A stretch of 64,000 nt of DNA from Ancylobacter mangrovi (lineage in GTDB: Bacteria; Pseudomonadota; Alphaproteobacteria; Rhizobiales; Xanthobacteraceae): positions 62,001 to 126,000 of the forward strand of contig NZ_JANTHZ010000010.1 of the NCBI RefSeq assembly GCF_024752355.1, written 5' to 3'. Both the position numbers and the translations under genes were made by a program. The notes beneath the pieces were generated by a model, which did no database searches, was not told the origin of the DNA, and saw nothing but the letters and a program-made list of their open reading frames with translations. Positions 8,691 through 28,789 of the stretch are shown here, one piece after another (the stretch's first letter is position 1; the number at the start of each line of letters is the position of its first letter).

Positions 8691-8840
8691 CGGCGCGCGG
8701 CAAGGCCCGCCCCTTCGTGCCGGTCGCCTCGCCTGTCATTTTCCGCTATGCGGATGCCCATGCCTTCTGCACGGGCAGCGGGGCTGCTCCCTGCTTCGCG
8801 CCCGGAGAAGGGAACGTGTCATTTGGACGGGGCCCGAGCC

Positions 8841-11974: not shown

Positions 11975-13471
11975 TTATTCGGTCTCGATCACGCTCTTGA
12001 AGCGATGCCGGACGAGCGGGTAGAGCAGGCAGAGGAAGGCCACCACGAGCAGGGCCAGGCTGATCGGCCGCTCGAAGAAGACGGTGGGCGAGCCCATCGA
12101 GATCACCAGCGACTGGCGCAGCGCGTTCTCCGCGTCGGGCCCGAGCACGAGGGCGATGACCAGCGGCGCGGCCGGGATGCCCGAGGCGCGGAAGCCGTAG
12201 CCCAGCACCGTGAAGGCGATCATCAGCCAGATGTCCCACATCGAGTTGTCGACGCTGTAGACGCCGATGACGCACAGCGAGGCGACGATGACGGGGAGCG
12301 TCCGCTCGGAGATGACGAACAGCCAGATGAAGAACGGCACCAGAAGGATGTTCTGCGCGAGCAGCATCAGGTTGCCGACATACATGCTGGCGATCAGGCC
12401 CCAGGCGACGTCCGCATGCTCGGTGAAGAGCCGCGGGCCCGGCTGGATGCCGAGGATGATGAAGGCACCGATCAGCACCGCCGTGGTCGCCGAGCCGGGA
12501 ATGCCGAGCGCGAGCAGCGGCACGAAGGCGCCGGAGCTGGCGGCGTTGTTGGCCGATTCCGGGCCGGCGACGCCTTCCAGCGCACCCTGGCCGAAGCGTT
12601 CGGGCGTCTTGGAGATCTGCTTCTCGACGCCGTAGGAGACGAAGGAGGCGATGGTCGCGCCCGCACCGGGCAGGATGCCGAGGAAGAAGCCGAGGAAGCC
12701 GCCGCGCACCATCGCCGCCCAGGTCTGCTTGAGATCGGCCATGGAGGGCAGGATCTCGCGGATCTTGAGCTTGATGTTCTGCTGCTTGGCCTCGGGTTGG
12801 GGATGGACGATGTCGTAGACGATCTCCGACAGGCCGAACAGGCCGACCACGGCCGGGATGAAGCCGATGCCGTCGATGAGCTCCATCGTGCCCCAGGTCA
12901 GGCGCGCCTGGCCGGAGATGATGTCCTGCCCGACGGTCGCCAGCAGCAGGCCGAGGAACAGCGACAGGAACGACTTCACCATGTTGCCGCGGGCGAGCGA
13001 GGAGACCATCACGAAGGCGAGGATGGTGACCGCGAAATATTCCGGCGGGCCGAACACGAGCGCCATGCGGGCGAGCGGGATGGCGAGCACGCTGAGCAGG
13101 ATGAGGCCGATGGTGCCGGCGATGAACGAGCCGATCGCCGCGAGGCCGAGGGCGACGCCGCCCTTGCCCTGCTTGGCCAGCGGATGGCCGTCATAGGTGG
13201 TAACGACCGAGGCGCTTTCGCCCGGCACGTTGAGCAGCACCGAGGTGATCGTGCCGCCATACATGGCGCCGTAATAGATGCCCGCCATGGCCACCAGCGC
13301 GATCAGCGGATCGACGCCATAGGTAATGGGCAGAAGAACGGCGATGGCCGCGCTCGGTCCGAGGCCCGGCAGGACGCCGACTAGCGTTCCCGCGAAGGTA
13401 CCGAGGAAACACATCAGGAGCAGCCAGGGGTCCATCATCCTGGCGAAACCGTCGATCAACGGGGTAAGCAT
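11975..13471 (-). CDS. Tripartite tricarboxylate transporter large permease (TctA family)
   Basis: A 498-residue membrane protein with about 11-12 hydrophobic segments. TctA signatures are clear: LVGVLPGLGPSAAIAVLLP near residue 35, LLNVPGESASV, and a second internal-repeat copy ILPGAGATIASFVSYG followed by LALGIPGSATTAVLIGAF. It is the channel subunit for carboxylates such as citrate or other di/tricarboxylates and works with the TctB and TctC genes immediately upstream (13500, 14029). The gap to tctB is 28 bp. Two enolase-superfamily enzymes follow on the same strand. Confidence 0.93.
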   Translation of the reverse strand: MLTPLIDGFARMMDPWLLLMCFLGTFAGTLVGVLPGLGPSAAIAVLLPITYGVDPLIALVAMAGIYYGAMYGGTITSVLLNVPGESASVVTTYDGHPLAKQGKGGVALGLAAIGSFIAGTIGLILLSVLAIPLARMALVFGPPEYFAVTILAFVMVSSLARGNMVKSFLSLFLGLLLATVGQDIISGQARLTWGTMELIDGIGFIPAVVGLFGLSEIVYDIVHPQPEAKQQNIKLKIREILPSMADLKQTWAAMVRGGFLGFFLGILPGAGATIASFVSYGVEKQISKTPERFGQGALEGVAGPESANNAASSGAFVPLLALGIPGSATTAVLIGAFIILGIQPGPRLFTEHADVAWGLIASMYVGNLMLLAQNILLVPFFIWLFVISERTLPVIVASLCVIGVYSVDNSMWDIWLMIAFTVLGYGFRASGIPAAPLVIALVLGPDAENALRQSLVISMGSPTVFFERPISLALLVVAFLCLLYPLVRHRFKSVIETE

Positions 13472-13499: not shown

Positions 13500-13961
13500 T
13501 TACGAAAACAACAAGCCAGGTTCCAAAGGAACTTCGAGCAGGTAGTGGAAGGCGGCATACAGCGCGGCGCCCCAGATGACGCTGAAGGCGATGTTCTTGA
13601 CGAGGCCGAGGCCGGAGAAGAACTGGCAGAACAGGAAGCAGAAGAGGATCGTCGAGAACAGGAACCCGACCACGTAGATCGAGGCGACGAACAGGACGAG
13701 AAGGAGGATGCACAGCACTCCCCTCATCGAGTTCTTCTCGCCGACCCCGTCGCTTCCCCCCTGTCGCACGGAATCGAACAGCACCGCGGCGCTGCAGATC
13801 AGCAGGCCGATGGAGTAGATCATCGGCAGGGCGCCGGGTCCGAGCGTGTAGTCGGCGGACAGAGAAAGCTGGTTGGCCGCGTAGACCTGAGCGGCGGCGA
13901 ACGCCACCATGAAGGCCGAGACCACGATCTCGGCGTTTAGGGGGAAGGCTTTATTGCCCAT
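13500..13961 (-). CDS. Tripartite tricarboxylate transporter small permease (TctB family)
   Basis: A 153-residue membrane protein with four hydrophobic segments, for example VVSAFMVAFAAAQVYAAN and a central VLCILLLVLFVASIYVVGF. The LSADYTLGPGALPMIYSIG stretch is the conserved TctB loop containing G-P-G-x-x-P. Start: ATG at 13961, eight bases downstream of GGAG; an in-frame TTG two codons upstream is too close to that site. It lies between tctC and tctA and is the accessory small subunit of the importer. Confidence 0.88.
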   Translation of the reverse strand: MGNKAFPLNAEIVVSAFMVAFAAAQVYAANQLSLSADYTLGPGALPMIYSIGLLICSAAVLFDSVRQGGSDGVGEKNSMRGVLCILLLVLFVASIYVVGFLFSTILFCFLFCQFFSGLGLVKNIAFSVIWGAALYAAFHYLLEVPLEPGLLFS

Positions 13962-13977
13962 GGACAAGGCTCCACTC

Positions 13978-14028: not shown

Positions 14029-14979
14029 TCACTTCTTCGGAAGCGACTGGCTTAGGAATTCGATCTGCTTGGTGACCACGTCCCGCACTTCTTCCGGCGA
14101 GCTGTAGGACACCCGCTGGGAGACCTTCTTGGCACGCTCGACATATTCGGGATCTTCGGTCGCCTGCTTGACGGCGTCCCGCAGCTTCTTCAGGACCGCC
14201 GGGTCCATGCCGGCCGGCGCGATCATGCCGCGGCTGGAGGCGCTGATCGGCAGGTCGAAGCCCTGCTCCTTGAAGGTCGGCACGTCCGGGATCAGCGGAT
14301 TGCGCTTGTCGCCGCCGACGCCGAGGATGCGCACGCTGCCCTCCTGCATGAGCGGGAGGACCTCGCTCACCGCCAGGCCGAGCGCGTCGATATGGCCGCC
14401 GAGCAGCGCGGTCACCGCCTCCGGCGTGCCGGCGAAGTTGACGACGCGGAACTTGGCGTCAGCCTTTGCCGCCAGCGCCAGCGACACCAGCCCGTCGAGG
14501 CTGGTCGAGCCGGTCGCGCCGTAGGACAGCCCGCCCGGATGCGCCTTCAGATAGGTGACGACGTCGCCGAGGCTCTTGTAGGGGCTCTTGGCCGGGACGA
14601 CGACGATCGCCGGGTCGACCATCACGTTGCCCAGGAAGTCGAAGGACTTGAGCGGGTCGATCGGCAGGCCGCCGCTGGCGGTAACGCCGGAGATCGCGGG
14701 ATAGTTGACGCTGCCAAGCGTATAGCCGTCCGGCTTGGAGCGGGCGACCTCGGTCCAGGCCACCGCGCCGCCGGCGCCCGGCTTGTTGATGACCACGACC
14801 GGCTGGCCGAGGATCTTCTGAAGGGTCGGGGCGACGGTGCGGATGGTGGCGTCCATCGCGCCGCCGGCGCTGAATCCGACGATCACCTGGATCGGACGAT
14901 CCGGGTAGTCGGCGAAGGCGGCGGCAGAGGTCAGAAGCGTACCCGCGACCGCAAGCGCTACGCGCAAGGTTGATTTCAT
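14029..14979 (-). CDS. Tripartite tricarboxylate transporter binding protein (TctC/Bug family)
   Basis: A 316-residue periplasmic receptor. The signal peptide is residues 1-23 (hydrophobic VALAVAGTLLTSAAAFA). The mature start YPDRPIQVIVGFSAGG is the Bug-family signature preceding the ligand loop, followed by VVVINKPGAGGAVAW and PDGYTLGS. The ATG at 14979 has GGAGGAA about six bases upstream. It heads the operon tctC-tctB-tctA with two enolase-superfamily enzymes. It is strikingly similar to the lone tctC at 22445 (same YGATGS, FAGT and SSRGM blocks), so the two may share a substrate class. A TATATGAT operator candidate lies 70 bp upstream. Confidence 0.93.
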   Translation of the reverse strand: MKSTLRVALAVAGTLLTSAAAFADYPDRPIQVIVGFSAGGAMDATIRTVAPTLQKILGQPVVVINKPGAGGAVAWTEVARSKPDGYTLGSVNYPAISGVTASGGLPIDPLKSFDFLGNVMVDPAIVVVPAKSPYKSLGDVVTYLKAHPGGLSYGATGSTSLDGLVSLALAAKADAKFRVVNFAGTPEAVTALLGGHIDALGLAVSEVLPLMQEGSVRILGVGGDKRNPLIPDVPTFKEQGFDLPISASSRGMIAPAGMDPAVLKKLRDAVKQATEDPEYVERAKKVSQRVSYSSPEEVRDVVTKQIEFLSQSLPKK

Positions 14980-15044
14980 CGTTTCCTCCAAGGTTGACGA
15001 AAGTTCTTTGGCCGGATGTCGTTAATCGCATCCGGTACAACGTA

Positions 15045-15060
15045 TCATATATGATATCAC
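15045..15060. promoter_or_regulatory. Candidate GntR operator, site A (upstream of tctC)
   Basis: The palindrome ATCATATATGAT at 15045-15056, extended by ATCA, lies in the AT-rich gap between the VOC gene and the start of the tctCBA operon. It contains TATATGAT (15049-15056), found also at 17010, 17857 and 23404 in promoter regions around the GntR gene at 17112. The palindromic form and promoter position support a repressor site; assignment to that GntR is inference. Confidence 0.6.
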
Positions 15061-15125
15061 ATCGACAGAACGTCAAGCTTTACTTGTTGTTTCTTGCTAT
15101 TTTTGAGCCTCTCCGCTGAGATATA

Positions 15126-15500
15126 TTACATACGTTGCAGCAGTTCGATTTTGATACGTTCCGGACCTTCGATGAATACGGTCCAGACACCCGGACGGGC
15201 CATCGTCACCGGCTCGACGATGACCGCACCCTTCCCGACCAGTTCCTCCGCCGCGGCCTTCACGTCGGCCACCACGAAGGCGAGATGGTCGATCGGCCCC
15301 GGCCCGCCCACGGCGCCGCCCGCCGCGCGCGGCGAGAGCGTCAGCTTCACCCCGCCGAGGTCGAGATCGACCTTGGGCCGCGCCGGCGGGTCGATCCGGT
15401 TGACGACGCGCGCGCCGAGCCGGTCGCAGAACCAGTCGGCCGCCGCGATGTAGTCGTCGAGCCGCAGATGAACGTGATCGAACCGGCACGCGATCGACAT
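15126..15500 (-). CDS. VOC-family (glyoxalase/bleomycin resistance-like) protein
   Basis: A 124-residue single-domain vicinal-oxygen-chelate protein. The two beta-alpha-beta-beta-beta halves are visible: FDHVHLRLDDYIAAADWF at the N-terminus, giving a metal-binding His9, and PIDHLAFVVADVKAAAEEL in the middle; the C-terminal strand IKIELLQ supplies the usual glutamate ligand. Members catalyse isomerisation, epimerisation or ring-opening at metal-bound oxygen atoms. The ATG at 15500 follows AGGAG by eight bases. It starts 23 bp after the aldehyde dehydrogenase stop, so the two are an operon; a role as a lyase or epimerase in the same catabolic route is likely, but the reaction is unknown. Confidence 0.85.
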   Translation of the reverse strand: MSIACRFDHVHLRLDDYIAAADWFCDRLGARVVNRIDPPARPKVDLDLGGVKLTLSPRAAGGAVGGPGPIDHLAFVVADVKAAAEELVGKGAVIVEPVTMARPGVWTVFIEGPERIKIELLQRM

Positions 15501-15523
15501 GGGTCCACTCCTCGCCGCCGCCG

Positions 15524-16993
15524 TCACCAGGCGACGGAGACGTACTGCGCCTCGAGGAATTCGAGCATGCCCTCATGCCCGCCCTCGCGGCCGAGGCCGG
15601 ACTGCTTCACGCCGCCGAACGGCGCCGCGGGGTCCGACACCAGGCCGCGATTGAGGCCGACCATGCCGAAGTCGAGCTGCTCGGAGATGGCGAGGCCGCG
15701 CTTGAGGTCGCGGGTGAAGAGATAGGCGACGAGACCGTATTCGGTGTCGTTGCACTTGCGCACCAGCTCGGCCTCGTCGTCGAAGCGGGTGATCGCGGCG
15801 ACCGGGCCGAATATCTCCTCACGGAAGCAGTCCGCATCCTCGGGCACGTCCACCATCACCGTCGGCGGGTAGTAGAAGCCGTGGCCATTGGGCAGGGTGC
15901 CGCCGGTCGTCACCCTGGCGCCGCGCGCCACGGCGTCCTGCACCAGCTCGTGCACCTTGCGGCGCGTGGCGTCGTTCACCAGCGAGCCGACCTGCACACC
16001 CTCCTCGAGGCCGTAGCCGACCTTCATCTCGGCCATGCGCGTTGTCAGCTTGTCGGCGAAGGCGTCGTGGACCGAGGAATGCACATAGAAGCGGTTCGCC
16101 GCGGTGCAGGCCTCGCCGAGATTGCGCATCTTGGCGAGGATGGCGCCCTCGACGGCGGCGTCGATGTCGGCATCGGCCAGCACTGCGAAGGGCGCGTTGC
16201 CGCCGAGCTCCATCGCCGGCTTGACGACGGTTCGGGCCGCCACCGCGAGAAGCTTGCGCCCGACCTCGGTCGAGCCGGTGAAGGAGACCACCCGCACCCG
16301 CGGGTCGCCGAGCAGCATCTCGGCGAGCGGGCCGGAGCGGCGCGAGGGAAGGACGTTGACGAGGCCGGCCGGCACGCCCGCCTTCTCCAGCAGCGGCATC
16401 AGCGCCAGCATGGTGAGCGGCGTCTCGGAGGCCGGCTTGATGATGACCGGGCAGCCCGCCGCCAACGCCGGGGCGATCTTGCGCGTGCCCATCGCCGCCG
16501 GGTAGTTCCACGGCGTGATGAGCACGGCGATGCCCGCCGGGCGGTGCTGGACGAGGATGCGGGCGCCGGTGGCCGGCCCGCGCGCCATCTCGCCGATGTT
16601 GCGCACCGCCTCCTCGGCGTACCAGCGGAAGAACTCGGCGGCATAGGAGACCTCGGCGCGCGAATCCGGCAGCGCCTTGCCGTTCTCCATCGTGATAAGG
16701 CGCGCGAGGCGCTCGTGATCGGCCATGATGAGCTCATAGGCCTTGCGCAGGATCTCGCCGCGCTCGCGTGCGCTGCGCGCCGCCCACGGCCCGAACGCCT
16801 TGTCCGCCGCCTCGAGCGCGGCCGCACCGTCCTCGAGGGTGGCGTCGGCGACCTCGGCGATGGTCTTGCCCGTGCCGGGATCGACCACGGGAAACGTGCC
16901 GCCCTCGCTTCCCTCGCGCCATTGCCCGTCGATGTACAGGCGGGTCGGCACGTTCAGGAGCTCCTGGTCGACGGCAGGTTCGGAAAGGGACAT
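15524..16993 (-). CDS. NAD(P)-dependent aldehyde dehydrogenase, succinate-semialdehyde-dehydrogenase-like
   Basis: A 489-residue aldehyde dehydrogenase oxidising an aldehyde to a carboxylate. Catalytic residues are Asn163 (TPWNYP), Lys186 (IIKPASE), Glu262 (MELGGNAP) and Cys296 (GEACTAANR). The C-terminal NRGLVSDPAAPFGGVKQSG segment resembles the succinate- and glutarate-semialdehyde dehydrogenase branch. Length is standard. It follows the GntR gene on the same strand with its own candidate operator at 17005-17033. With the adjacent Fe-alcohol dehydrogenase and Ldh2 enzyme it suggests a pathway passing through a semialdehyde (inference). Confidence 0.9.
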   Translation of the reverse strand: MSLSEPAVDQELLNVPTRLYIDGQWREGSEGGTFPVVDPGTGKTIAEVADATLEDGAAALEAADKAFGPWAARSARERGEILRKAYELIMADHERLARLITMENGKALPDSRAEVSYAAEFFRWYAEEAVRNIGEMARGPATGARILVQHRPAGIAVLITPWNYPAAMGTRKIAPALAAGCPVIIKPASETPLTMLALMPLLEKAGVPAGLVNVLPSRRSGPLAEMLLGDPRVRVVSFTGSTEVGRKLLAVAARTVVKPAMELGGNAPFAVLADADIDAAVEGAILAKMRNLGEACTAANRFYVHSSVHDAFADKLTTRMAEMKVGYGLEEGVQVGSLVNDATRRKVHELVQDAVARGARVTTGGTLPNGHGFYYPPTVMVDVPEDADCFREEIFGPVAAITRFDDEAELVRKCNDTEYGLVAYLFTRDLKRGLAISEQLDFGMVGLNRGLVSDPAAPFGGVKQSGLGREGGHEGMLEFLEAQYVSVAW

Positions 16994-17004
16994 CTCGCAC
17001 CCAA

Positions 17005-17033
17005 CATAATATATGATCTGATATATGGTTATG
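17005..17033. promoter_or_regulatory. Candidate GntR operator, site B (upstream of aldehyde dehydrogenase)
   Basis: AT-rich patch with outer arms CATAA / TTATG (17005-17009, 17029-17033) enclosing TATATGAT (17010-17017) and TCTGATAT (17017-17024). It begins 12 bp upstream of the dehydrogenase start and shares both octamers with site D at 23404-23426. It lies between the GntR gene and the dehydrogenase gene, so it could give the latter its own regulated promoter. Confidence 0.6.
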
Positions 17034-17111
17034 ACGGCGGGCGCGACACGTCAAGCATGCCGATCACCTCATAGGGCCGCTTTATCGAAACCGGGGCACC
17101 GCCCCGGCCCG

Positions 17112-17795
17112 TCAGTCGAACACCGACATCACGCGCTGGCGGGACTTCTCGATATGCGAGCGCATGGCCGCCGCCGTGCCCTCCGGATCGCCCTGCTTCA
17201 GCTTGTCGAAGATCTGGCGGTGCTCGTCGATCGCCTCCTGCGTCACCCGCGCATGCGAATAGAAGCGGAAGATGTGGATGTGCGTGTGAAGGCGCTCCAG
17301 CGAGTCGGCGATCAGCGTGTTGCCGCTCAGCGAGGCCAGGTAGTCATGGAACTCGGAATCGTGCACCGCGAAGTCGCGGTAGTGGTTGCCCGGGTGCGCG
17401 CCGGCCATCTGCTGCACGATCATCTCGGCGCGCCGGATCTTGTCGGGGTCGATGGCGGCGGCTGCACGCGCGGCCGCGGTCGGCTCCAGCAGCAGGCGGA
17501 AATCGAACAGCTCCTCGAACTGGCTCTTGGTGAGCTGCGGCGCCGCGCGATAGCCGACCAGGTGGGTCTTGATGACGAGGCCGTTCACCTCGAGCCGGCT
17601 AAGCGCCTCGCGTACCGGCGTCTGCGAGACGCCGAGCTCGCGCGAGAGATTGTCCACGCGCAGCCGTTCGCCGGGCTGGATCTGCAGCGTCATGAGCTGG
17701 CCCAGCAGCACGTCGTAGACATTGTCGACGAGGCTCGCAGGACGCGCCATCAGGGCGCTGCCGGGGGAGTTGTCCTTCTTCGATGGCTTAATCAT
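17112..17795 (-). CDS. GntR-family regulator, FadR/FCD subfamily
   Basis: A 227-residue regulator: winged helix at about 22-85 (GVSQTPVREALSRLEVNG is the recognition segment) and an FCD domain with conserved ligand-site residues in FAVHDSEFHDYLASL, SLERLHTHIHIFRFY and DEHRQIF. FCD proteins bind small carboxylates and release DNA. Start ATG 17795 is one of several options (GTG 17804, ATG 17750) and has no strong ribosome site. It is divergent from the 17888 dehydrogenase operon, with candidate sites on both sides, and is the best candidate regulator for the TATATGAT sites at 15.0, 17.0, 17.9 and 23.4 kb. Confidence 0.9.
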   Translation of the reverse strand: MIKPSKKDNSPGSALMARPASLVDNVYDVLLGQLMTLQIQPGERLRVDNLSRELGVSQTPVREALSRLEVNGLVIKTHLVGYRAAPQLTKSQFEELFDFRLLLEPTAAARAAAAIDPDKIRRAEMIVQQMAGAHPGNHYRDFAVHDSEFHDYLASLSGNTLIADSLERLHTHIHIFRFYSHARVTQEAIDEHRQIFDKLKQGDPEGTAAAMRSHIEKSRQRVMSVFD

Positions 17796-17850
17796 GCAGC
17801 GCACATCCCGATGGGATTCCTTGACTCCGGAAGGCCAATTCGTATCCTCG

Positions 17851-17866
17851 ATATAATATATGATTG
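17851..17866. promoter_or_regulatory. Candidate GntR operator, site C (between gntR and the dehydrogenase operon)
   Basis: ATATAATATATGATTG at 17851-17866 lies in the 92-bp divergent gap between the GntR gene and the Ldh2-type dehydrogenase, 21 bp before the latter's start. TATATGAT is at 17857-17864; the preceding bases (ATAATATATGAT) match site B exactly. A site here could control both the regulator and the plus-strand operon. Confidence 0.6.
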
Positions 17867-17887
17867 GATTCTGAGGCGCGATAAAAA

Positions 17888-18901
17888 ATGCTCGTCAAGG
17901 CTGAAACAGCGCGAGAAGTCTGCATCGCCGCCCTCACCCGACATGGCGTTTCCGCTGCAAATGCGGGCATTCAGGCCGAGTTGCTGGTGCAGGCGGAACT
18001 GATGGGACACCCCTCCCACGGCCTCCAGCGCCTTCCGCGAATCATCGAGCGCATCGGCAACGGCGTGATCGACCCGGTCGCGACCGGCGCCCATGACTGG
18101 CGGACCCCGTCGCTGCTCGACGTAGACGGGCAGATGGGGCTCGGCCCGGTCGTCCTGGTGCAGGCGCTCGAGGAGGCAGCCCGCCGGACCCCGGAGACGG
18201 GCGTGGTGCTCGGCGCGATCCATAACAGCAACCATATCGGGATGTTGAGCTGGTACGTCCGCCATTTCGCGGAACGCGGCTTCGTCAGCATCATCGTTAC
18301 AACCAGCGAGGCGCTTGTCCATCCGCTCGGCGGCCGCCGCGCCATGATCGGCACCAACCCGCTGGCGATCGGCGTGCCCGCCACGCCCGACCCGTTCGTG
18401 CTCGACATGGCCTCGGGACTGGTCTCGATGGGCAAGATCCACGACTACGCCGCGCGCGGCGAGCCGATTCCCGACAACTGGGCGCTCGACGCGGAGGGCA
18501 ACCCGACCACCGACGCCGCCGCGGCCAAGGGCGGGGCCATCGCCCCCTTCGGCGGCGGCAAGGGCTACGGCCTCGGCCTCGGGATCGAGCTGCTCGTCGG
18601 CGCGCTCACCGGATGCGCCCTCGGCACCGACGTCAAGGGCACGCTCGATTCGGACAAGGTCTGCAACAAGGGCGACCTGTTCATCCTCATCGACCCCGCT
18701 CACGTGCGCGGCACCGGCATCTCGGCCTATCTCGACGAGATCCGCCACATCGCCCCCATCGACCCCGCCTCCCCGGTCCTGGTGCCGGGCGACCGCGCGG
18801 TGCGGGTGCGGGCCGAGCGCACGGCCAAAGGCATTCCCGTGAACCCGGACGTCTGGCGGCAAATCGAGAATTACACCACCCAGAAAGGAAAGCTGTCGTG
18901 A
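17888..18901 (+). CDS. Ldh2-family (malate/L-lactate/sulfolactate-type) NAD(P)-dependent dehydrogenase
   Basis: A 337-residue oxidoreductase of the Ldh2/YbiC/ComC fold, unrelated to classical Rossmann LDH. Family landmarks are GHPSHGLQRLP (40-50), IHNSNHIGML (111-120) and GTNPLAIGVPA, which form the nicotinamide and substrate site. Members oxidise alpha-hydroxy acids such as malate, lactate, ureidoglycolate or sulfolactate, or reduce cyclic imines. It heads a plus-strand operon with an Fe-alcohol dehydrogenase (GTGA overlap), a D-2-hydroxyacid dehydrogenase and an enolase-superfamily enzyme. Two other Ldh2 members occur at 52441 and 56916. The substrate cannot be fixed from sequence. Confidence 0.9.
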   Translation: MLVKAETAREVCIAALTRHGVSAANAGIQAELLVQAELMGHPSHGLQRLPRIIERIGNGVIDPVATGAHDWRTPSLLDVDGQMGLGPVVLVQALEEAARRTPETGVVLGAIHNSNHIGMLSWYVRHFAERGFVSIIVTTSEALVHPLGGRRAMIGTNPLAIGVPATPDPFVLDMASGLVSMGKIHDYAARGEPIPDNWALDAEGNPTTDAAAAKGGAIAPFGGGKGYGLGLGIELLVGALTGCALGTDVKGTLDSDKVCNKGDLFILIDPAHVRGTGISAYLDEIRHIAPIDPASPVLVPGDRAVRVRAERTAKGIPVNPDVWRQIENYTTQKGKLS

Positions 18902-20136
18902 CGAGTTTCGGTGTCCTGCGTAGTCCGCGCACGGTTCTTTTCGGCAGCGGCCAGCGTGCCGCGCTCGGCTGGACGGCGCGCTCCCTCGGTCAGCGGGCGC
19001 TGATCTGCACCGACGAGCGCATGGCGCGCGACCCGCTCTTCCACGAGATGGTCGAGGATCTCGGGCGCAACGGCGTCGCCGTACACGTCTATGACGGCAC
19101 CATGGTCGACGTGCCGATCGGCCTGGTCGAGACCGCGGCCGAGGCGGCGAAGCCGTTCGGCCCCGACGTCGTCATCGGCATCGGCGGGGGAAGCTGCCTC
19201 GACCTCGCCAAGGCGGTGGCGCTGCTGCTCAGCCATGGCGGCGACGTGCGCGGCTACTATGGCGAGGGCAAGGTGCCCGGCCCCATCCTGCCGGTGATCG
19301 CCATCCCCACCACCGCGGGCACCGGCTCAGAAGTCACCCCGGTGGCGGTGCTCTCCGACCCCGACCGTCTGCTCAAGGTCGGCGTGTCGAGCCCCTATCT
19401 GGTCCCGACCGTCGCCATCTGCGACGCGGAGCTGACCCTCACCTGCCCGCGCGGGCTGACCGCCGTGTCGGGCGCCGACGCCCTCACCCACGCCATCGAG
19501 GCCTATACGGCCGTACGCCGGCCGGCGACCGCCCAGCTCGCGCAGACCAACGTCTTCGTCGGCAAGAACGACCTGTCCGACCAGTTCGCGCGCGAGGCGG
19601 TGCGGGTGATCTTCGCCAATCTGCGCCGCGCCTGCGAGGACGGCTCCGACCTCGCGGCACGCGAAGGCATGATGCTCGGCTCGCTCACCGCCGGGCTCGG
19701 CTTCGGCAATGCCGGCACGGCGCTCGCCCACGCGCTGCAATATCCGCTCGGCGCCCTCACACACACCTCGCATGGCGAGGGGGTGGCCGCGCTGCTGCCC
19801 TATGTGATGGAGTTCAACCAGCCGGCGGCGGCCCCGCTCTATGCCGAGCTCGCCGGGCCGATGGGGCTGGGCGCCATGGCCGACGAGGCCACGGCCTGCG
19901 ACGCGGCGATCGACGCGGTCGCCTCGCTGTTCGCCGATATCGGCATCCCGACCAGCCTCGGCGCCATGAGGCTGGAGGCCAAGGACATCGACCGCGTCGC
20001 TTCCGAATCGCTCCACGCCGCGCGGCTGATCAACAACAACCCGCGGCCGGTCGACGTGAACGGCGCCCGGCGCGTGGTCGCCTGCGCGCTCGCCGGCGAC
20101 CGGGCGGCCGCGCGCGAAGAGCTGCGGGCGGACTGA
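18898..20136 (+). CDS. Iron-containing (group III) alcohol dehydrogenase
   Basis: A 412-residue enzyme with an N-terminal NAD-binding domain (GIGGGS at 94-99) and a C-terminal helical metal domain. The Fe/Zn ligands are Asp194 and His198 (GADALTHAIEAY), His278 (AHALQYPLG) and His292 (THTSHGEG), all conserved. TTAGTGSEVTPVAV (138-151) is the family phosphate-binding loop. The start is GTG 18898, whose GTGA overlaps the upstream stop, with AAAGGAAAG before it. Family members interconvert primary alcohols or hydroxy acids and aldehydes, including tartronate semialdehyde and maleylacetate. It probably works in sequence with the Ldh2 enzyme or the 15524 aldehyde dehydrogenase. Confidence 0.92.
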   Translation: MTSFGVLRSPRTVLFGSGQRAALGWTARSLGQRALICTDERMARDPLFHEMVEDLGRNGVAVHVYDGTMVDVPIGLVETAAEAAKPFGPDVVIGIGGGSCLDLAKAVALLLSHGGDVRGYYGEGKVPGPILPVIAIPTTAGTGSEVTPVAVLSDPDRLLKVGVSSPYLVPTVAICDAELTLTCPRGLTAVSGADALTHAIEAYTAVRRPATAQLAQTNVFVGKNDLSDQFAREAVRVIFANLRRACEDGSDLAAREGMMLGSLTAGLGFGNAGTALAHALQYPLGALTHTSHGEGVAALLPYVMEFNQPAAAPLYAELAGPMGLGAMADEATACDAAIDAVASLFADIGIPTSLGAMRLEAKDIDRVASESLHAARLINNNPRPVDVNGARRVVACALAGDRAAAREELRAD

Positions 20137-20145
20137 GCCGGGACG

Positions 20146-21093
20146 ATGAAAAGCGTCATCCGCTCGCCGCACTACGCGCAGCAGCTCGTGCCGGTGATCC
20201 GCCGGCTGCTCGGTAGCGATCCGGTTGTCCCGCAAGACGAGGCGGAGTGCTACCGCGTGGTGGGCGAGGCGGATGTGCTCTTCTGCCAGCCCTCGCAGAT
20301 CAGCCCCGAGCTGGTGCGGGCGATGGCGCAGGCGCCGCGCCTGCGCTGGCTCCAGGTGCTGGGCTCGGGGGTCGACAAGCTCGCGAGCCTCGAGCGCCCC
20401 GACCTCGTCATCACAAACGCCGCCGACGCCTACGGCCCGGCGGTGGCCGAGCACGCGGTGGCGCTGGCGCTCGCGCTGTTCCGGCGGATTCCGGAGCTGG
20501 TCGAGGCGCGCGAGCGCCGGCAATGGACCAAGCCGAGCATCGACGACCGGCTGGATTCGCTTGAGGGCGCGGTCGCCGCCGTGGTCGGCTACGGCGCCAT
20601 CGGCGCGGCGATCGTCCGCCGGCTGGAAGCCTTCGACGTGTCCTCCATCCGCGTCGTGCGCCGCCGGCCCGTCCCCTCCCCCGATGGCGAAGCGGGCCGC
20701 GCGCGCTTCATGCCGCTCGACGAGGCGCTGTCGGGCGCCGACATCGTCTTCCTCGCCGTGCCGCTCACCGGGCAGACCCGCCGCCTCGTCGACGCGGCGC
20801 GCCTCGCGCATCTCGCGCCGGGCGCGCGGCTCGTCAACGTCTCGCGCGGCGACGTGGTGGACACGGACGCGCTGATCGCCGCGCTCGCGAGCGGGGCGCT
20901 CTCGGGTGCCGCGCTCGACGTGTTCGAGACCGAGCCGCTGCCGACCGCGAGCCCGCTCTGGGCGCTGCCCAACCTCATCGTCTCGCCGCATGTGGCCGGG
21001 CGCGGCAATCGGCGCGTCACCGAGCGGATCATCGGCATCTGCGAACGCAACATCACGGCCTTCGCCGCGGGCGACCTGCGGAGCAGCCAATAA
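20146..21093 (+). CDS. D-isomer-specific 2-hydroxyacid dehydrogenase (NAD-binding)
   Basis: A 315-residue Rossmann enzyme reducing 2-oxo acids or oxidising D-2-hydroxy acids. The cofactor loop is GYGAIG (148-153), shorter than the classical GxGxxG-x17-D pattern; Arg171-Arg172 after the second strand (RVVRRRP) suggests NADP preference. The catalytic triad is Arg234 (NVSRGD), Glu263 (FETEPLP) and His282 (SPHVAG). It starts nine bases after the Fe-alcohol dehydrogenase stop and precedes an enolase-superfamily gene by 41 bp. In acid-sugar routes such enzymes act as hydroxypyruvate or glyoxylate reductases (inference). Confidence 0.92.
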   Translation: MKSVIRSPHYAQQLVPVIRRLLGSDPVVPQDEAECYRVVGEADVLFCQPSQISPELVRAMAQAPRLRWLQVLGSGVDKLASLERPDLVITNAADAYGPAVAEHAVALALALFRRIPELVEARERRQWTKPSIDDRLDSLEGAVAAVVGYGAIGAAIVRRLEAFDVSSIRVVRRRPVPSPDGEAGRARFMPLDEALSGADIVFLAVPLTGQTRRLVDAARLAHLAPGARLVNVSRGDVVDTDALIAALASGALSGAALDVFETEPLPTASPLWALPNLIVSPHVAGRGNRRVTERIIGICERNITAFAAGDLRSSQ

Positions 21094-21134
21094 CCCGCAG
21101 CCCGATCGGGCATGCGGAATCCGGGAGGATTTGA

Positions 21135-22247
21135 ATGAAGATAGTCGATCTCAAGGTCGAGCTGTTCCGGTGGGACGCGGTCGCCAATGTCCGCTACGGC
21201 GCGCACAGCGCCGCGCGCGGGGCGAGCCAGTCCTGCCTGGCGCTGGTGAGCGTGCTGACCGACGAGGGCGTGAAGGGACATTCCTTCCTCGGCGCCTATT
21301 CGCGCTCGGCTGAGCTCGATGCGCTCTCGCTGGTGCGCGCGCTGAAGCCGATGGTGGTGGGCGAGGACCCGCTCGACCGCGAGCGCCTGCTGAAGCGGAT
21401 GATGCAGCGCATCAAGCTGACCACCTACCGCGCCGTCGGCGCCGTCGACGTCGCGCTGTGGGACCTCGCCGGCAAGGTGGCGGGGCTGCCGGTCTACAAG
21501 CTGATGGGTGCCTTCCGCGACAGCGTGCCGGCCTATGCGAGCTCGGAAGTGCTCGGCTCGGTCGGCGACTATGTCGAGCAGGCCCAGCGCATGAAGGCCG
21601 AGGGCTGGAAGGCCTACAAGATCCACCCGCCGGCGGACTGGCGGGAGGACATCGCCATCTGCAAGGCGGTGCGCGAGGCGGTCGGCGGCGACTATCCGCT
21701 GATGCTCGATTCCACCTGGTCCTACACCTATGAGGAGACGATCCGCGTCGGCCGCGCGATCCAGGACCTCGACTATTACTGGTACGAGGACCCGCTGCCG
21801 CCCGAGGACCTGCTCAACTACGTGAAGGTGAAGCAGCAGCTCCACATCCCGATCGTGGCGACCGAGTACTCGGCCGGCGGCTTCGCAGGCTTCGCGCCGT
21901 GGATCGTGAACCGGGCAACCGACGTGCTGCGCGGCGATCCGGCGGTGAAGGGCGGGCTGACCGCCTGCCTCAAGGCGGCGCATCTCGCCGAGGCGTTCGG
22001 CATGAATTTCGAGATCCACCACGGCGGCAACTCGCTCAACAACGTGGCGAACCTGCACCTGATGTGCGCGATCCGGAACTCCGAGTTCTTCGAGGTGCTG
22101 CTCCCCGACGAGGCGCAGAAATACGGGCTGGTCGAGGACATCAAGGTCGGGCCGGACGGCATGCTCAAGGCCCCGACGGGGGCCGGGCTCGGCGTCGAGA
22201 TCGACTTCGACCTGGTCCGCCGCAACTTCGTCGCCGACGTGGTCTGA
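21135..22247 (+). CDS. Enolase-superfamily (mandelate racemase-like) enzyme 4
   Basis: A 370-residue enolase-superfamily member. Second-strand motif is Lys162-x-His164 (YKIHPP), metal ligands Asp192 (LDSTW, with Ser where Asn is usual), Glu218 (YEDPL) and Glu244 (ATEYS), and the seventh-strand residues are His295-His296 (IHHGGNS). The Asp270-type partner lies in RGDPAVKGG. The Lys-x-His arrangement differs from the other four enolase-superfamily enzymes here. A good ribosome site (GGGAGGA) precedes the ATG. It closes the plus-strand operon begun at 17888 and is followed by a strong terminator. Likely an acid-sugar dehydratase or epimerase. Confidence 0.9.
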   Translation: MKIVDLKVELFRWDAVANVRYGAHSAARGASQSCLALVSVLTDEGVKGHSFLGAYSRSAELDALSLVRALKPMVVGEDPLDRERLLKRMMQRIKLTTYRAVGAVDVALWDLAGKVAGLPVYKLMGAFRDSVPAYASSEVLGSVGDYVEQAQRMKAEGWKAYKIHPPADWREDIAICKAVREAVGGDYPLMLDSTWSYTYEETIRVGRAIQDLDYYWYEDPLPPEDLLNYVKVKQQLHIPIVATEYSAGGFAGFAPWIVNRATDVLRGDPAVKGGLTACLKAAHLAEAFGMNFEIHHGGNSLNNVANLHLMCAIRNSEFFEVLLPDEAQKYGLVEDIKVGPDGMLKAPTGAGLGVEIDFDLVRRNFVADVV

Positions 22248-22303
22248 AACCGGGAGGCGGGAGACCCCTCCCGCCCCTAGGCGGGGCTCCGGCCTCCCCT
22301 TCC

Positions 22304-22337
22304 AGGGCGCCAGCCCTTCCGGGCCGGCGCCCTTTTT
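22304..22337 (+). terminator. Rho-independent terminator of the 17888-22247 operon
   Basis: Stem AGGGCGCC (22304-22311) / GGCGCCCT (22326-22333) followed by a run of five T (22333-22337), 57 bp after the enolase-superfamily stop. This is the clearest intrinsic terminator in the window. Confidence 0.8.
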
Positions 22338-22404
22338 CTGTGGCCTCCAAAACAAAAGGAGCGGAAGGCACGCCTCCCGCTCCAGTCGCCTCTTTGGTTC
22401 GGTT

Positions 22405-22434
22405 CAGGCGCCCGCCGCGGCGGGTCGGCGCCTG
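22405..22434 (-). terminator. Nested palindromic hairpin after the lone tctC
   Basis: Outer arms CAGGCGC (22405-22411) / GCGCCTG (22428-22434) enclose the 14-bp palindrome CCCGCCGCGGCGGG (22411-22424), 11 bp beyond the tctC stop on the minus strand. There is no T-run downstream. It may terminate or protect the 3' end of the tctC message and marks the convergent boundary with the plus-strand operon. Confidence 0.5.
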
Positions 22435-22444
22435 GTCAGCGACG

Positions 22445-23383
22445 TCACTTCTTCAGCGCGTCCTTGAGGAAGGTGATCTGGTCCTCGACCGCCGTACGGA
22501 CCTGCTCCGGCGAGCGGTAGGTGATCTGCTGCGAGACCTTCTTGGCGCGCGCCAGATATTCAGGGTCCTGCGTCGCCTGCTTGATCGCGTCGCGCAGCTT
22601 CTTGAGGATTGCCGGATCGACGCCGGCGGGCGCCAGCATGCCGCGGCTGGATTCGTTGATGGGCAGCGTGAAACCCTGCTCGGCAAAGGTCTTGACGCCG
22701 GGCAGCAGGTCGCTCTCGCTGGTGCCGCCGACGCCGAGCACGCGCACCTGGTCGAGGAAGGGCTGCACCTCGCTGACCGCGAGGCCGACCGCGTCGACAT
22801 GCCCGCCCAGCAGCGCCGTCGCCTGCTCGGCCGTGCCGGCGAAATTCACGACGCGGAACTTGGCGCCGGCCGTGCGGTCCAGCGCCAGAACCGTCAGGCC
22901 GTCGAGGCTCATGCTGCCGGTCGCCCCGTAGGAGAGCCCGCCCGGATGCTCCTTGAGATAGGCGACGACGTCCTTCATCGACTTGTAGGGGCTCTTGTTG
23001 GAGACGACCGCCACGGCCGGATCCACCATCACGTTGCCAAGGAAGGCGAAGGTCTTCATCGGGTCGAACGGAAGCCCACCGCCGGCCGTCACGCCGGAAA
23101 CCGCCGGGTAGTTCACGCTTCCCAGCGTGTACCCGTCCGGCTTGGCGCGGGCGACCTCGGTCCAGGCCAGCGCGCCGCCGGCGCCGGGCTTGTTGATGAC
23201 CACGATCGGCTGGCCGAGGATCTTCTCGAGCGTCGGGGCTATGGTGCGGATGGTCGAATCCATGCCGCCGCCGGCGCTGAAGCCGACGATGACCTGAATG
23301 GGATGGTCCGGATAGTCCGCCTTGGCGAGGGCGGGCGTCAGCGACAGGCAGGCCGCCGCCATGACGAGGGTACTGAACTTCAT
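22445..23383 (-). CDS. Orphan TctC/Bug-family periplasmic binding protein
   Basis: A 312-residue TctC protein with a signal peptide (VMAAACLSLTPALAKA) and the Bug signature YPDHPIQVIVGFSAGGG, then VVINKPGAGGALAWTEVA and PDGYTLGSVNYPAVSG. It matches the 14029 receptor block by block, indicating a duplication, but no tctA or tctB accompanies it; the nearest permeases are at 11975-13961 and 26752-28749. It may feed the 11975 permease. The shared TATATGAT site (23404) upstream supports co-regulation with the 15-22 kb genes. Orphan Bug receptors are common in Betaproteobacteria and some can act as sensors (family knowledge). Confidence 0.9.
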   Translation of the reverse strand: MKFSTLVMAAACLSLTPALAKADYPDHPIQVIVGFSAGGGMDSTIRTIAPTLEKILGQPIVVINKPGAGGALAWTEVARAKPDGYTLGSVNYPAVSGVTAGGGLPFDPMKTFAFLGNVMVDPAVAVVSNKSPYKSMKDVVAYLKEHPGGLSYGATGSMSLDGLTVLALDRTAGAKFRVVNFAGTAEQATALLGGHVDAVGLAVSEVQPFLDQVRVLGVGGTSESDLLPGVKTFAEQGFTLPINESSRGMLAPAGVDPAILKKLRDAIKQATQDPEYLARAKKVSQQITYRSPEQVRTAVEDQITFLKDALKK

Positions 23384-23402
23384 GCTTTATCCTCCCAATT
23401 GG

Positions 23403-23426
23403 TTATATGATTTAATATCTGATATT
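23403..23426. promoter_or_regulatory. Candidate GntR operator, site D (upstream of orphan tctC)
   Basis: TATATGAT at 23404-23411 is followed by the palindrome AATATC-T-GATATT (23414-23426), 20-45 bp upstream of the orphan tctC start. TCTGATAT within it is also in site B. It is the fourth copy of the octamer seen in this GC-rich window, all in promoter regions. Confidence 0.55.
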
Positions 23427-23500
23427 ATTTTGAAGGGCAACGCTGTCAATCCGGGCCGGGGATGCCTCTGCCGGCCGCGCGGCGCGAAGGTCCGCCGTCC

Positions 23501-24229
23501 TCACCCCGCCGGCGGCACCTTCGCCGTCTGGCCGGAACGTGCCAGGGCCTGCGCAACGAAGCCGCTGGTCTTCATATCGGTGACGAACGCCTCCAGCAGG
23601 TCGCGCGCATGGCTGCGCCCCTTGGGCACGCCGATGGCCTGCCCGATCTCCATGAACGCCTCCTCCATCACCCGGTAGCCGGGATGGGCGGCGGCATAGG
23701 CATCGAGCCATGCGCGCACGCCGGCCGCGGCGTCGAGGCGCTCGGCCACGAACAGGTCGATCATGGCGGCGGAGCCCCCGCGCGGAGCGCGCACGATCCG
23801 CGCATGGGCGAGCGTGCGCGAAAGGAACAGGTCGTATGCCGAACCCGGCCCCACCGACACCCGCATTCCCGGGGCGTCGACATCTCGCGGCGTGCGCAGC
23901 GGCGAGGAGGCCGGCACCATGTAGGTGCCTTCGATCATCGCATAGGGGCTGGTGAACGCGATCTGCGCCTCCCGCACCGGATCGATGGCGAGGAACGCGA
24001 TGTCCCACGCCCCCGGCTTCAGCGCCTCGAACAGTATGCCGGCCGCCTCGAACGGCACGATGTCGAGACCGAGCCCGGTTCGGGAGGCGAATTCCGTGGC
24101 GAGATCCACCGCGATCCCGGTCGGCGCACCGTCGGCGCCGCGCTGGGCGAGGACCGTGTTGCCGAAATTGATGGCGGCGCGGAGCACGCCCGTCGGCGCC
24201 AGTTCGTCGCGCTCTTTCTCAGTCAGCAT
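23501..24229 (-). CDS. SBP-family-3-like solute-binding protein lacking a signal peptide
   Basis: A 243-residue type-II periplasmic-binding fold of the amino-acid/polar family (SBP_bac_3): TGIAVDLATEFASRTGL, AWDIAFLAIDPVREAQI, FTSPYAMIEGTYMVPA and VSVGPGSAYDLFL are the expected strands and ligand loops. Unlike transport receptors it starts directly with MLTEKERDELAPTGVLR: there is no hydrophobic leader at ATG 24229 or GTG 24232, both well placed after AAGGAGG, so it appears cytoplasmic. Related soluble proteins include cyclohexadienyl dehydratase-like enzymes and ligand sensors. It is divergent from the GntR at 24426. No permease or ATPase adjoins it. Confidence 0.8.
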   Translation of the reverse strand: MLTEKERDELAPTGVLRAAINFGNTVLAQRGADGAPTGIAVDLATEFASRTGLGLDIVPFEAAGILFEALKPGAWDIAFLAIDPVREAQIAFTSPYAMIEGTYMVPASSPLRTPRDVDAPGMRVSVGPGSAYDLFLSRTLAHARIVRAPRGGSAAMIDLFVAERLDAAAGVRAWLDAYAAAHPGYRVMEEAFMEIGQAIGVPKGRSHARDLLEAFVTDMKTSGFVAQALARSGQTAKVPPAG

Positions 24230-24425
24230 CACGGGGTTTCCTCCTTGCAGGGGACGGGCGGGTTGACGAGATAAGGGAGGGCATAGGCAGCCCACGCAGG
24301 CCCGCCGGCCGCCGCCCTGCCCCTTCGGCAAGGCGAGCTATCGCCATGAGCCTGTTTGCTGTTTGTCTGCTATAGTGTGGCGAGCCAATCGGGCACCCCG
24401 CCACCGACACGACATCCGGGAGCCA

Positions 24426-25346
24426 ATGCGGAGCAACAGCCTTTCCAAGCGCATCGCGGCGTCGATCACCAAACGCATCCAGGACGGTGAATTTCCCCCT
24501 GGCGCGCATCTGCGCGCCGAGCAGATGTCCGAGATCTTCAAGGTGTCCCGCTCGCCGATCCGCCAGGCGTTCCAGATCCTCGCCGCGCAGGGGATCGTCG
24601 AGCAGAAGGTCAATCGGGGCTTCTTCGTCAGCGAGGACCCGGCGCTGCCGGCGCCGCGGCAGGACCTGGCCGAGCATACCGATGCGCCCGAGATCCATTT
24701 CCGCTTCGCCGAGGACTGGCTCAACGACCGCATTCCCGCCGACGTTACCGAGCAGTTCCTGCGCGACCGCTATCACCTGACCAAGGCACAGGTCTTCGAA
24801 CTGCTGACCCGCGCCGCAAACGAGGGCTGGGCCGAACGCAAGGAAGGCCGGGGCTGGCGCCTTCTCGCCGTCGCCAAGGCCACCGAGACGCTGGAGCAGA
24901 TCTACCGTTTCCGCGCCATCATCGAGCCGGCGAGCCTTCTCGAACCCGGCTTCGCCCTCGACCGGGCGGCGATCGCGGAGCAGCGGCGGATCCAGGAGGG
25001 CATGTATGCCGGCGACATCGAGCGCATGTCGGCCGACCGCCTGCTGGTGACCGGCGTGAACTTTCATGAAGCGCTGGTCCGCATGTCCAACAGCCCGTTC
25101 TTCCTGCAGTCGGTGGTCCGCGCCAACCGTATGCGGCGGCTGCTCAACTATCGGACGCTGGTCGACCGCGCGCGCTTCTACGACCAGGCCCGCGAGCACC
25201 TGCAGATGCTCGACCTGCTCGAGCGCGGCGAGAACCTCGAATGCTCCTACCTTCTCAAGCGCCATCTGACCGGCGCCCTGGCGCAGCGGGCGATCTGGCA
25301 GGAATCGGCGCCGAAGAACATGCTCGTCTCCAGCGCCGCCGAGTGA
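24426..25346 (+). CDS. GntR-family regulator with an apparent second winged-helix domain and FCD-like domain
   Basis: A 306-residue protein, longer than usual FCD regulators. Residues 1-70 are a GntR winged helix (FKVSRSPIRQAFQILAAQGI). Residues about 95-150 look like a second winged helix (ADVTEQFLRDRYHLTKAQV followed by the wing-like EGWAERKEGRGWRLL), and about 155-300 resemble the helical FCD domain (IYRFRAIIEPASLLEPGF, then HEALVRMSNSPFF, then AREHLQMLDLL). Start ATG 24426 follows GGGAG. It is divergent from the signal-less binding-like protein and convergent with the MmgE/PrpD gene, so it may control the latter's operon from outside. Domain assignment of the middle segment is inference. 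Confidence 0.82.
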   Translation: MRSNSLSKRIAASITKRIQDGEFPPGAHLRAEQMSEIFKVSRSPIRQAFQILAAQGIVEQKVNRGFFVSEDPALPAPRQDLAEHTDAPEIHFRFAEDWLNDRIPADVTEQFLRDRYHLTKAQVFELLTRAANEGWAERKEGRGWRLLAVAKATETLEQIYRFRAIIEPASLLEPGFALDRAAIAEQRRIQEGMYAGDIERMSADRLLVTGVNFHEALVRMSNSPFFLQSVVRANRMRRLLNYRTLVDRARFYDQAREHLQMLDLLERGENLECSYLLKRHLTGALAQRAIWQESAPKNMLVSSAAE

Positions 25347-25352
25347 ACGGCC

Positions 25353-26699
25353 TCAGATCGCGAGCTGCGAGATCCTCGGCAGCGCGCGAAGGTCGTTGAG
25401 CTGTTCGAGCAGCCGGCGCGGATCGGCGATCACCCCGTCCACCAGATGCAGGAACTTGGCGTCGAGCTCTTCGGCGCTCATCGGATTGCTCGGCGCGCCG
25501 CGGAAGTCGCGCCGCTCGATGGCGAATTCGCGCCCGTCGCGCAGCCGCACGCGCAGCTTCGTCGCCCATGCCGCGCCCGGCGCCTTGCTCTCCTCGTTCA
25601 GGGTGAGCACCACCCGCTGGGCGAGATCGATGATGCCGGCATCCTCGTGCGGGTTGTCGAGGAAGGACGAGGGCTCGCTCGGATCGCGCCAGGCCGCCGT
25701 CGCCATGCAGAACGGCAGGCTGTACTGGGCCGTCGCAATGTCGTTGGGGTGGCGGATGTCGTGGTGGCTGAGGACCTTCTCGCTGGTCGCGATGTGAATC
25801 TCGGCGATGTCCTGCGCCGCGAAGCCGTGCGCGGCCTGCAGGTCCCGAAGCGCCTGGATCGGCGTGTTGGCCGTCACATGGCAGGGATAGGCCTTCATGC
25901 AGATCCGGCTGGTCTCCCAGTTCGAGCCAAGCCCGGCCGTCAGTTCGTCGAGCTTAGGCTCGCGGGTGAAGGCCTCGAAGAAGCCGAGCTTGCCCTCCAG
26001 CACGACGTCGGGCCCGTCGAACCCGGCGGAGGCGAGGCAGGCCGCGAGCACGCCGCCCTCCGATGCGCGCCCCGTATGCAGGCGCTTCACCGTCCCGCCA
26101 TTGCCGGCCTTGGAGAAGGCGAGCAGCCCCGAGCACAGAGAGCCGGCGATGCCGAGCGCATTCGCCATCTGGCGCGGATCGAGCCGGAGCAGCCGGCCGG
26201 CGGTGACCGCGGCGCCGAAGGTGCCGGTGAGGCCGGGCGAGTGGAAGCCCAGCTTCTCGGCCGTGTTGCGCGCGGCGACGCCGATCCGGCACATCACCTC
26301 GCACCCGGCGACGAAGGCGACGAGCAGGTCCCGCCCGCCCGCATCGACCTCGTCGCCGACGGCGAACATCGGCGGCAGCAAGGTCGAGCCCGCATGCACG
26401 CCGGCGCTCGGCTGGCGCAGATTGTCCATCTCGAATCCGTGCGCCAGCGTTCCGTTGGCCAGCGCCGCGAACGGCGTCGCGACGCGCGCCGGGGTGCCGA
26501 GGATGCGACCCGTTCCCCCGCCGCCATACTTCACCGCATAGTCGATGACGATCCGGCTCCACGGCAGGGTCGAGCCGAAGACGGTCGCGGCGACCGAATC
26601 CACGATAGCGTCGTTGGCCTTGCGGACGATCGCGTCGGGAATGTCCTCGAACGACAGGCGGGACGCGAAGTCGGCGAGGATCTGAGTAGGCGATGACAC
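25353..26699 (-). CDS. MmgE/PrpD-family protein
   Basis: A 448-residue member of the MmgE/PrpD family, which includes 2-methylcitrate dehydratase, cis-aconitate decarboxylase and iminodisuccinate epimerase. The N-terminal segment DAIVRKANDAIVDSVAATVFG, the GTPARVATPFAALANGTLAHG motif and the SLCSGLLAFSKAGNGGTVKRLHTG motif of the active-site cleft are present; MKAYPCHVTANTPIQAL is the conserved lid region. I prefer GTG 26699, seven bases after GGAG, over ATG 26705, which sits one base from that site. It is the last gene of the operon that runs from 33087. Likely substrate: an imported polycarboxylate. Confidence 0.9.
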   Translation of the reverse strand: MSSPTQILADFASRLSFEDIPDAIVRKANDAIVDSVAATVFGSTLPWSRIVIDYAVKYGGGGTGRILGTPARVATPFAALANGTLAHGFEMDNLRQPSAGVHAGSTLLPPMFAVGDEVDAGGRDLLVAFVAGCEVMCRIGVAARNTAEKLGFHSPGLTGTFGAAVTAGRLLRLDPRQMANALGIAGSLCSGLLAFSKAGNGGTVKRLHTGRASEGGVLAACLASAGFDGPDVVLEGKLGFFEAFTREPKLDELTAGLGSNWETSRICMKAYPCHVTANTPIQALRDLQAAHGFAAQDIAEIHIATSEKVLSHHDIRHPNDIATAQYSLPFCMATAAWRDPSEPSSFLDNPHEDAGIIDLAQRVVLTLNEESKAPGAAWATKLRVRLRDGREFAIERRDFRGAPSNPMSAEELDAKFLHLVDGVIADPRRLLEQLNDLRALPRISQLAI

Positions 26700-26751
26700 A
26701 CGCATTCTCCGTGCTTTGTCGATGACGGGATGGCGGGAACGGCGGGGGGCG

Positions 26752-28269: not shown

Positions 28270-28272
28270 GAC

Positions 28273-28749: not shown

Positions 28750-28789
28750 CGTTCTTCCGTCCCTATTCGTATGTTTTTGTGTGCCCGCC

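Follow-up and report, generated by a model that had tools for sequence, protein, structure and literature searches.

We analysed a window of 64,000 nucleotides from Ancylobacter mangrovi (NCBI RefSeq assembly GCF_024752355.1, contig NZ_JANTHZ010000010.1, positions 62,001 to 126,000), in which four short sites, here called A to D, stand ahead of genes for a tripartite tricarboxylate transporter (TTT), enolase-superfamily enzymes and dehydrogenases. One of these sites adjoins gntR, which encodes a GntR regulator of the FCD type (P0001). Judging from the sequence, all four sites are probably operators of this regulator, a reading to which we give a probability of roughly 0.84. The genes concerned are the following.

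9552-10733, minus strand: enolase-superfamily enzyme MR_a (Pfam MR_MLE)
10792-11931, minus strand: enolase-superfamily enzyme MR_b (Pfam MR_MLE)
11975-13471, minus strand: TctA (Pfam TctA)
13500-13967, minus strand: TctB (Pfam TctB)
14029-14979, minus strand: binding protein TctC-A (Pfam TctC)
15126-15500, minus strand: VOC/glyoxalase-family protein (Pfam Glyoxalase)
15524-16993, minus strand: aldehyde dehydrogenase (ALDH); the nearest NCBIfam model is of the succinate-semialdehyde type, below its cut-off
17112-17795, minus strand: GntR/FCD regulator P0001, 227 amino acids (Pfam GntR and FCD), the proposed regulator of A to D
17888-18901, plus strand: Ldh2-family dehydrogenase (Pfam Ldh_2)
18901-20136, plus strand, start approximate: iron-containing alcohol dehydrogenase (Fe-ADH; Pfam Fe-ADH)
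20146-21093, plus strand: D-2-hydroxyacid dehydrogenase (Pfam 2-Hacid_dh_C)
21135-22247, plus strand: enolase-superfamily enzyme MR_c (Pfam MR_MLE)
22445-23383, minus strand: orphan TctC binding protein, unit D (Pfam TctC), 72% identical to TctC-A

Site A precedes tctC-tctB-tctA and two enolase-superfamily genes (unit A), site B precedes the aldehyde dehydrogenase and VOC genes (unit B), and site C lies between gntR and the Ldh2/Fe-ADH/2-hydroxyacid dehydrogenase/enolase-superfamily genes. The TTT set is complete, with Pfam scores of 528 bits for TctA, 65.7 for TctB and 187.8 for TctC. An earlier reading of this sequence (the original prediction) had joined two importers under the sites; a TTT importer does stand under a site, but there is a single TctA/TctB pair with two TctC proteins. 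Site D serves an orphan TctC so similar to TctC-A that we describe the genes as a single importer with a pair of binding proteins. Among solved structures, the enolase-superfamily enzymes are best matched by 3bjs, 1rvk and 2oo6; NCBIfam scores stayed below the cut-offs. Past the end of the orphan tctC, a terminator-like hairpin with a T-run on the minus strand (22358-22383) would close unit D.

Both Pfam matches of P0001 exceed their cut-offs (GntR 49 bits, FCD 100.2 bits), which places the protein in the FCD subfamily of the GntR superfamily. A subfamily search of its own genome at E 1e-20 returned one match, gntR itself. A short palindromic operator near the regulator's own promoter is a trait of FCD proteins, and it is present here as predicted site C in the divergent gap. 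An assignment of P0001 as the phosphonate regulator PhnR (TIGR03338) was rejected, the score being 101.5 bits against a curated cut-off of 271.5.

The core of the sites is the 8-mer TATATGAT, which gives five strand matches at four places in the window; 0.10 are expected on average and none of 100 shuffles reached five, bearing out the original claim that such a set is unlikely by chance. Matches at 15044-15051 on the minus strand and 15048-15055 on the plus strand form one palindromic site, and the other places are 17010, 17857 and 23404. All four lie in gaps between genes, each in the promoter gap ahead of a gene, as had been predicted, with the first position corrected from 15049 to 15048. 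Site A forms a 14-bp palindrome without mismatch, TATCATATATGATA; that of site D, likewise predicted, is TAATATCTGATATTA and adjoins the TATATGAT of D instead of lying within it. Sites B and D do share TCTGATAT.

Across the whole genome (4.91 Mb) TATATGAT has 18 strand matches, five of them in the window. Its frequency inside coding regions had been named as a possible argument against a regulon: 11 of the 13 matches outside the window fall inside an open frame of at least 100 codons, which is weak coding evidence in DNA this GC-rich, and every one of the 13 scores at most 14.8 with the operator matrix described below. The longer ATMATATATGAT has exact matches in the 4.9-Mb genome at sites A, B and C only, and WTMATATMTGAT at A, B, C, D and one other place, C20:213731. 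This last place, located between reading frames judged by eye to be AraC-like and SDR-like, was rejected as a further operator since its matrix score is 4.4, against 22.6 for A, 17.5 for B, 16.2 for C and 19.3 for D under the same scoring.

To obtain an operator matrix free of the window, we searched two genome sets for GntR relatives: 397 genomes from the order, of which 37 gave a match at E 1e-30, and 30 from the genus, of which 22 did so at E 1e-20, the own genome being included in both counts. Upstream regions of 44 gntR genes from other genomes, whose GntR proteins are 42-69% identical, were reduced to 32 by dropping 12 redundant ones and submitted to a motif search written for the purpose. 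The 23-bp operator learned in this way is CAATMCKATATCCTATAGGATTT; a match of at least 18 is held by 29 of the 32 regions, and three (L023, L027 and L042) do not fit. We also built R1, an Infernal model of 23 relatives' sites; in alignment A1, five of the 32 regions were left out by hand (L023, L027, L042, L038 and L039) and four of the remaining 27 as repeated sequences. With both models, the candidate operators of the window are as follows.

15042-15064, minus strand: operator A, between a -35-like TTGACG (first T at 15076) and tctC-A; matrix 24.2, first rank in the window; R1 E 0.018
17002-17031, no strand assigned: operator B, ahead of the aldehyde dehydrogenase gene; TTGACG with first T at 17054; matrix 19.3; R1 E 6
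17844-17871, no strand assigned: operator C, in the gntR/Ldh2 gap, the same gap that holds the relatives' operator; TTGACT with first T at 17821; matrix 17.7; R1 E 1.3
23403-23432, no strand assigned: operator D, ahead of the orphan tctC; TTGACA with first T at 23449; matrix 21.4; R1 E 2.1; a promoter-like match

The matrix ranks A, D, B and C as the top four places of the window, and the best score elsewhere in the 64 kb is 13.3. None of 500 column-permuted matrices equalled the four-site sum or the margin. On the window, R1 gave eight matches at E of at most 10, all of them in A to D, of which only that at A is strong. The whole genome was also scanned with R2, a mixed model that contains the window's sites by construction and was used only to seek a fifth site: all five matches at E of at most 10 lie at A to D, and the 150 of 269 first-look candidates that were scored included no further operator of comparable strength.

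Across the order, the operator follows the regulator. R1 matches of at least 19.5 bits, a threshold set after the list was seen, occur in 29 of the 37 GntR-positive genomes and in none of the 360 GntR-negative ones. Eighteen of the 29 had supplied a site to the training of R1. Among the other 11, G099, G278, G347, G383 and G309, and also G332, carry a site identical to a training row; the operator site of G004 is new relative to these rows; and in G291, G222, G005 and G357 the R1 matches each lie 72-73 bp from the matched part of gntR. Outside the training set, three plasmid loci (L101-L103) score 39.9, 36.9 and 32.5 with the matrix between gntR and the divergent gene, and two further loci score 33.0 (L104) and 32.6 (L105), with the site 76 and 126 bp upstream of the matched gntR segment. 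A scan of genome contigs also returned nine distant GntRs (26-50% identity in the best segment), several with TctC-like genes nearby; GntR_0 is the better match in eight of the nine loci, and these loci were excluded from further analysis.

The original prediction of one GntR regulon over four units under the GntR at 17112 is thus supported, because the motif is not genome-wide, the window-free matrix and R1 pick the same four sites, and the operator follows the GntR subfamily. Comparison of intergenic regions in relatives, also proposed there, gave a divided answer. The only genome found with a close ortholog of P0001 (69% identical) is G416, in which tctCBA-MR_b-MR_a is kept beside the ortholog (54-86% identical) and the gntR promoter carries a clear operator (21.0); the tctC promoter is not clearly conserved. 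MR_b orthologs of at least 86% identity occur in the same two genomes only, of 341 genomes of the family, the next being 52-53% identical. Between gntR and tctC of G416 (L062, 11115-11330), where the window has the ALDH and VOC genes, there are remains only: a VOC-like piece of 56 residues (34%) and a C-terminal ALDH piece (HEGMLEFLE), the ALDH match counting 11 residues.

Several observations weigh against the assignment of A to D to P0001. In G416 the tctC promoter reaches just 11.4, and a match of 17.2 stands about 700 bp upstream of tctC beside remains of decayed genes, so that conservation of site A is not clear there. Site C (17.7) was beaten by one of 30 Markov-simulated 64-kb sequences (18.4), and C, B and D are weak with R1 even when the window alone is searched (E 1.3, 6 and 2.1). 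On the whole own genome R1 gave no match at E of at most 10 among the 150 of 444 candidates that were scored, which we take to mean that the operators here have diverged from the consensus and that R1 is too strict for drifted sites. Eight of the 37 GntR-positive genomes, the own genome included, are without an R1 match of 19.5 bits; matches of up to 18.5 bits occur in GntR-negative genomes (G241, G153 and G290); and 82 of the 397 genomes have some R1 match at E of at most 0.5.

The position of the sites bears on how P0001 may act. TTGAC lies 12, 23, 28 and 19 bp upstream of the best 23-bp register at A, B, C and D, respectively, and the expected -10 position is overlapped by sites A, B and D. 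In relatives the spacing was measured in 38 of the 44 loci (those scoring at least 25): TTGAC, on the strand pointing away from gntR, precedes the operator by 39-41 bp in 37 of them (near-copies included) and by 35 bp in one. An operator that covers the -10 and start region suits a repressor, and if the sites are its operators, P0001 most likely works as one; repression rather than activation is what we infer. A variant compatible with the same site assignment is that P0001 is mainly an activator, or represses at some sites and activates at others. The distance between operator and TTGAC does vary within the window and differs from that in relatives, and an FCD activator, CitO, is known (PMC4746285); all four sites are nevertheless downstream of a -35-like box, in the position of a repressor, which makes this variant improbable.

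It is considerably less probable that the sites are operators of another regulator, for example one of two other GntR/FCD proteins close by, of which one (8748-9521) adjoins the tct operon and the other lies at 24426-25343. The DNA-binding domains of these two share 34% and 25% identity with that of P0001, whereas those of the relatives L015-L058 share 51-66%, or 85% in G416; the FCD domain of the relatives is less conserved, with corresponding values of 36-49% and 61%. In a tree, P0001 pairs with the G416 ortholog (100/98), and the G004 member joins more weakly (95/76) on a long branch flagged by the program. The matrix found nothing above 13.3 in the window outside A to D, neither at the second tctA/tctB pair (26.7-28.8 kb) nor at the PrpD-like gene or the GntR at 24.4 kb. 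The tct operon of G416 adjoins the P0001 ortholog in a 20-kb locus, where the GntR_0 query has no match of its own. In five stretches TctC-like genes accompany an MR_b of 51-52% identity while P0001 has no match; these hold no promoter operator (best score 16.9, inside a gene match), and two of their genomes (G402 and G472) carry a GntR of the subfamily elsewhere. A comparison by eye of recognition-helix residues with operator letters was dropped as confounded by descent.

Two neighbouring features belong with these regulators. The FCD GntR at 8748-9521 is convergent with the tct-enolase operon, with no operator of this type nearby. At 23501-28776 a second cluster encodes a family-3 binding protein, a GntR/FCD regulator, an MmgE/PrpD-type protein, TctA and TctB; it holds no copy of the operator and resembles an independent TTT system that has a GntR to itself.

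Least probable is a reading of TATATGAT as an AT-rich -10 box of promoters that recurs by chance or because it makes promoters strong, and that answers to no regulator of its own. In its favour, the place expected for a -10 box is overlapped by A, B and D, and TATGAT in our judgement looks like such a box. Against it, a -10 element should recur at many promoters, but the longer motif is confined to this locus; the plus strand carries TATATGAT at each of the four sites (at A the minus strand does so too), though three of the four units run on the minus strand; and the other listed AT-rich stretches of the window score at most 12.8.

Under the preferred assignment to P0001, the regulator would control its own divergent gap and three other promoters, covering the DNA 12-50 bp downstream of the TTGAC -35 box at each and blocking RNA polymerase. 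H150, H192 and H214 of P0001 align with three metal-site histidines of TM0439, and D146 with an aspartate, according to the residue list in PMC7674646; three His, often joined by an Asp or Asn, are the metal-site residues of the FCD subfamily. According to PMC7674646 and PMC4746285, DgoR and CitO, FCD proteins with such metal sites, bind D-galactonate and citrate with a metal, and by analogy the inducer of P0001 is likely a carboxylate. A carboxylic-acid substrate could bind the FCD metal site and cause P0001 to leave the DNA. Joint induction would then extend to the TTT importer and both its binding proteins, to all three enolase-superfamily enzymes and to the four dehydrogenases, presumably for a common pathway.

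Gene context in relatives suggests where this regulon may have come from. The order gntR, operator, Fe-ADH, ALDH is found in 14 of 20 fetched loci (with Ldh2 between in 10) and in all three annotated plasmid loci (two with Ldh); the remaining six fetched loci have part of the Fe-ADH/ALDH set or none. An operator in the gntR-Ldh2/Fe-ADH gap is a trait of the subfamily with the CCTATAGG-type operator, as defined here; the window has it in weaker form than the relatives, and its Ldh2/Fe-ADH/ALDH module is split, Ldh2 and Fe-ADH being under C and ALDH under B. Five of six loci viewed (L063, L069, L073, L101 and L102) have an ABC-transporter and/or alpha/beta hydrolase gene nearby, which is not evident in L103. 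In L103 (position 5054, 18.5) and L066 (position 5824, 19.4) a second, weaker operator-like site follows shortly after the ALDH gene, hinting at multi-site regulons elsewhere. In G004 (L071, 8410-13653) a canonical operator (33.4) lies ahead of Fe-ADH, gntR, tctC and tctA, and this locus is an independent link of the GntR subfamily to a TTT importer.

We consider, tentatively and at somewhat less than even odds, that this lineage rewired a GntR-operator pair which is conserved in the order and serves an Ldh2/Fe-ADH/ALDH oxidation module. Its operator may have drifted from CCTATAGG towards CATATATG/AATATATG, reached four promoters and taken over the TTT importer and the enolase-superfamily enzymes. 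Besides the drifted pair (21.0), G416 has a gntR copy of the canonical type whose operator is canonical too (39.8, L076), which suggests that drift insulates two paralogous circuits.

As gene control, such a regulon is well supported but of an ordinary type; what adds interest is that many relatives hold a family of sites like these. The likely membership of the regulon, four promoters, has been set by computation. A TTT importer with two binding proteins is tied to a defined enzyme set, so that its substrate can be sought, and an operator logo is gained for a GntR subfamily present in 37 of the 397 sampled genomes of the order. Literature searches by motif or gene set returned nothing, or entries without an evident description as judged from the listings.

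Among systems that can be compared is the GntR RHE_RS28340 on plasmid p42f of Rhizobium etli CFN 42, which is 47% identical to P0001, has a matrix score of 39.9 in its gap, and stands divergent to genes annotated as Ldh, iron-containing alcohol dehydrogenase and succinate-semialdehyde dehydrogenase. Unlike the window, it has the canonical operator CGTATAGG, and its stretch shows no TTT importer or enolase-superfamily gene among 17 annotated features, in a gene table that may be incomplete. DgoR of E. coli, a FadR-family GntR, resembles the present system, as described in PMC7674646, in serving sugar-acid catabolism, in inverted repeats that overlap the promoter and in an FCD metal site of His and Asp. 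Atu1419 of Agrobacterium fabrum is, according to PMC7797058, an FCD/VanR-group GntR repressor of a local catabolic region. One 10-bp palindrome, ATGTATACAT, recurs there in identical form, both in the divergent gap of the regulator and in the promoter of a neighbour, where it overlaps the -10 box of atu1418 and atu1420. P0001 would likewise be an FCD GntR of a local catabolic region with a palindrome repeated in its own gap and neighbouring promoters, whereas its predicted operator is of the ATCATATATGAT/ATCCTATAGGAT type, its genes are other ones and its promoters number four. Local FCD regulons with a palindrome at several promoters are, as that source on Atu1419 indicates, already known, and what is possibly new here is this regulon, together with a possible drift of its operator and rewiring of its genes.

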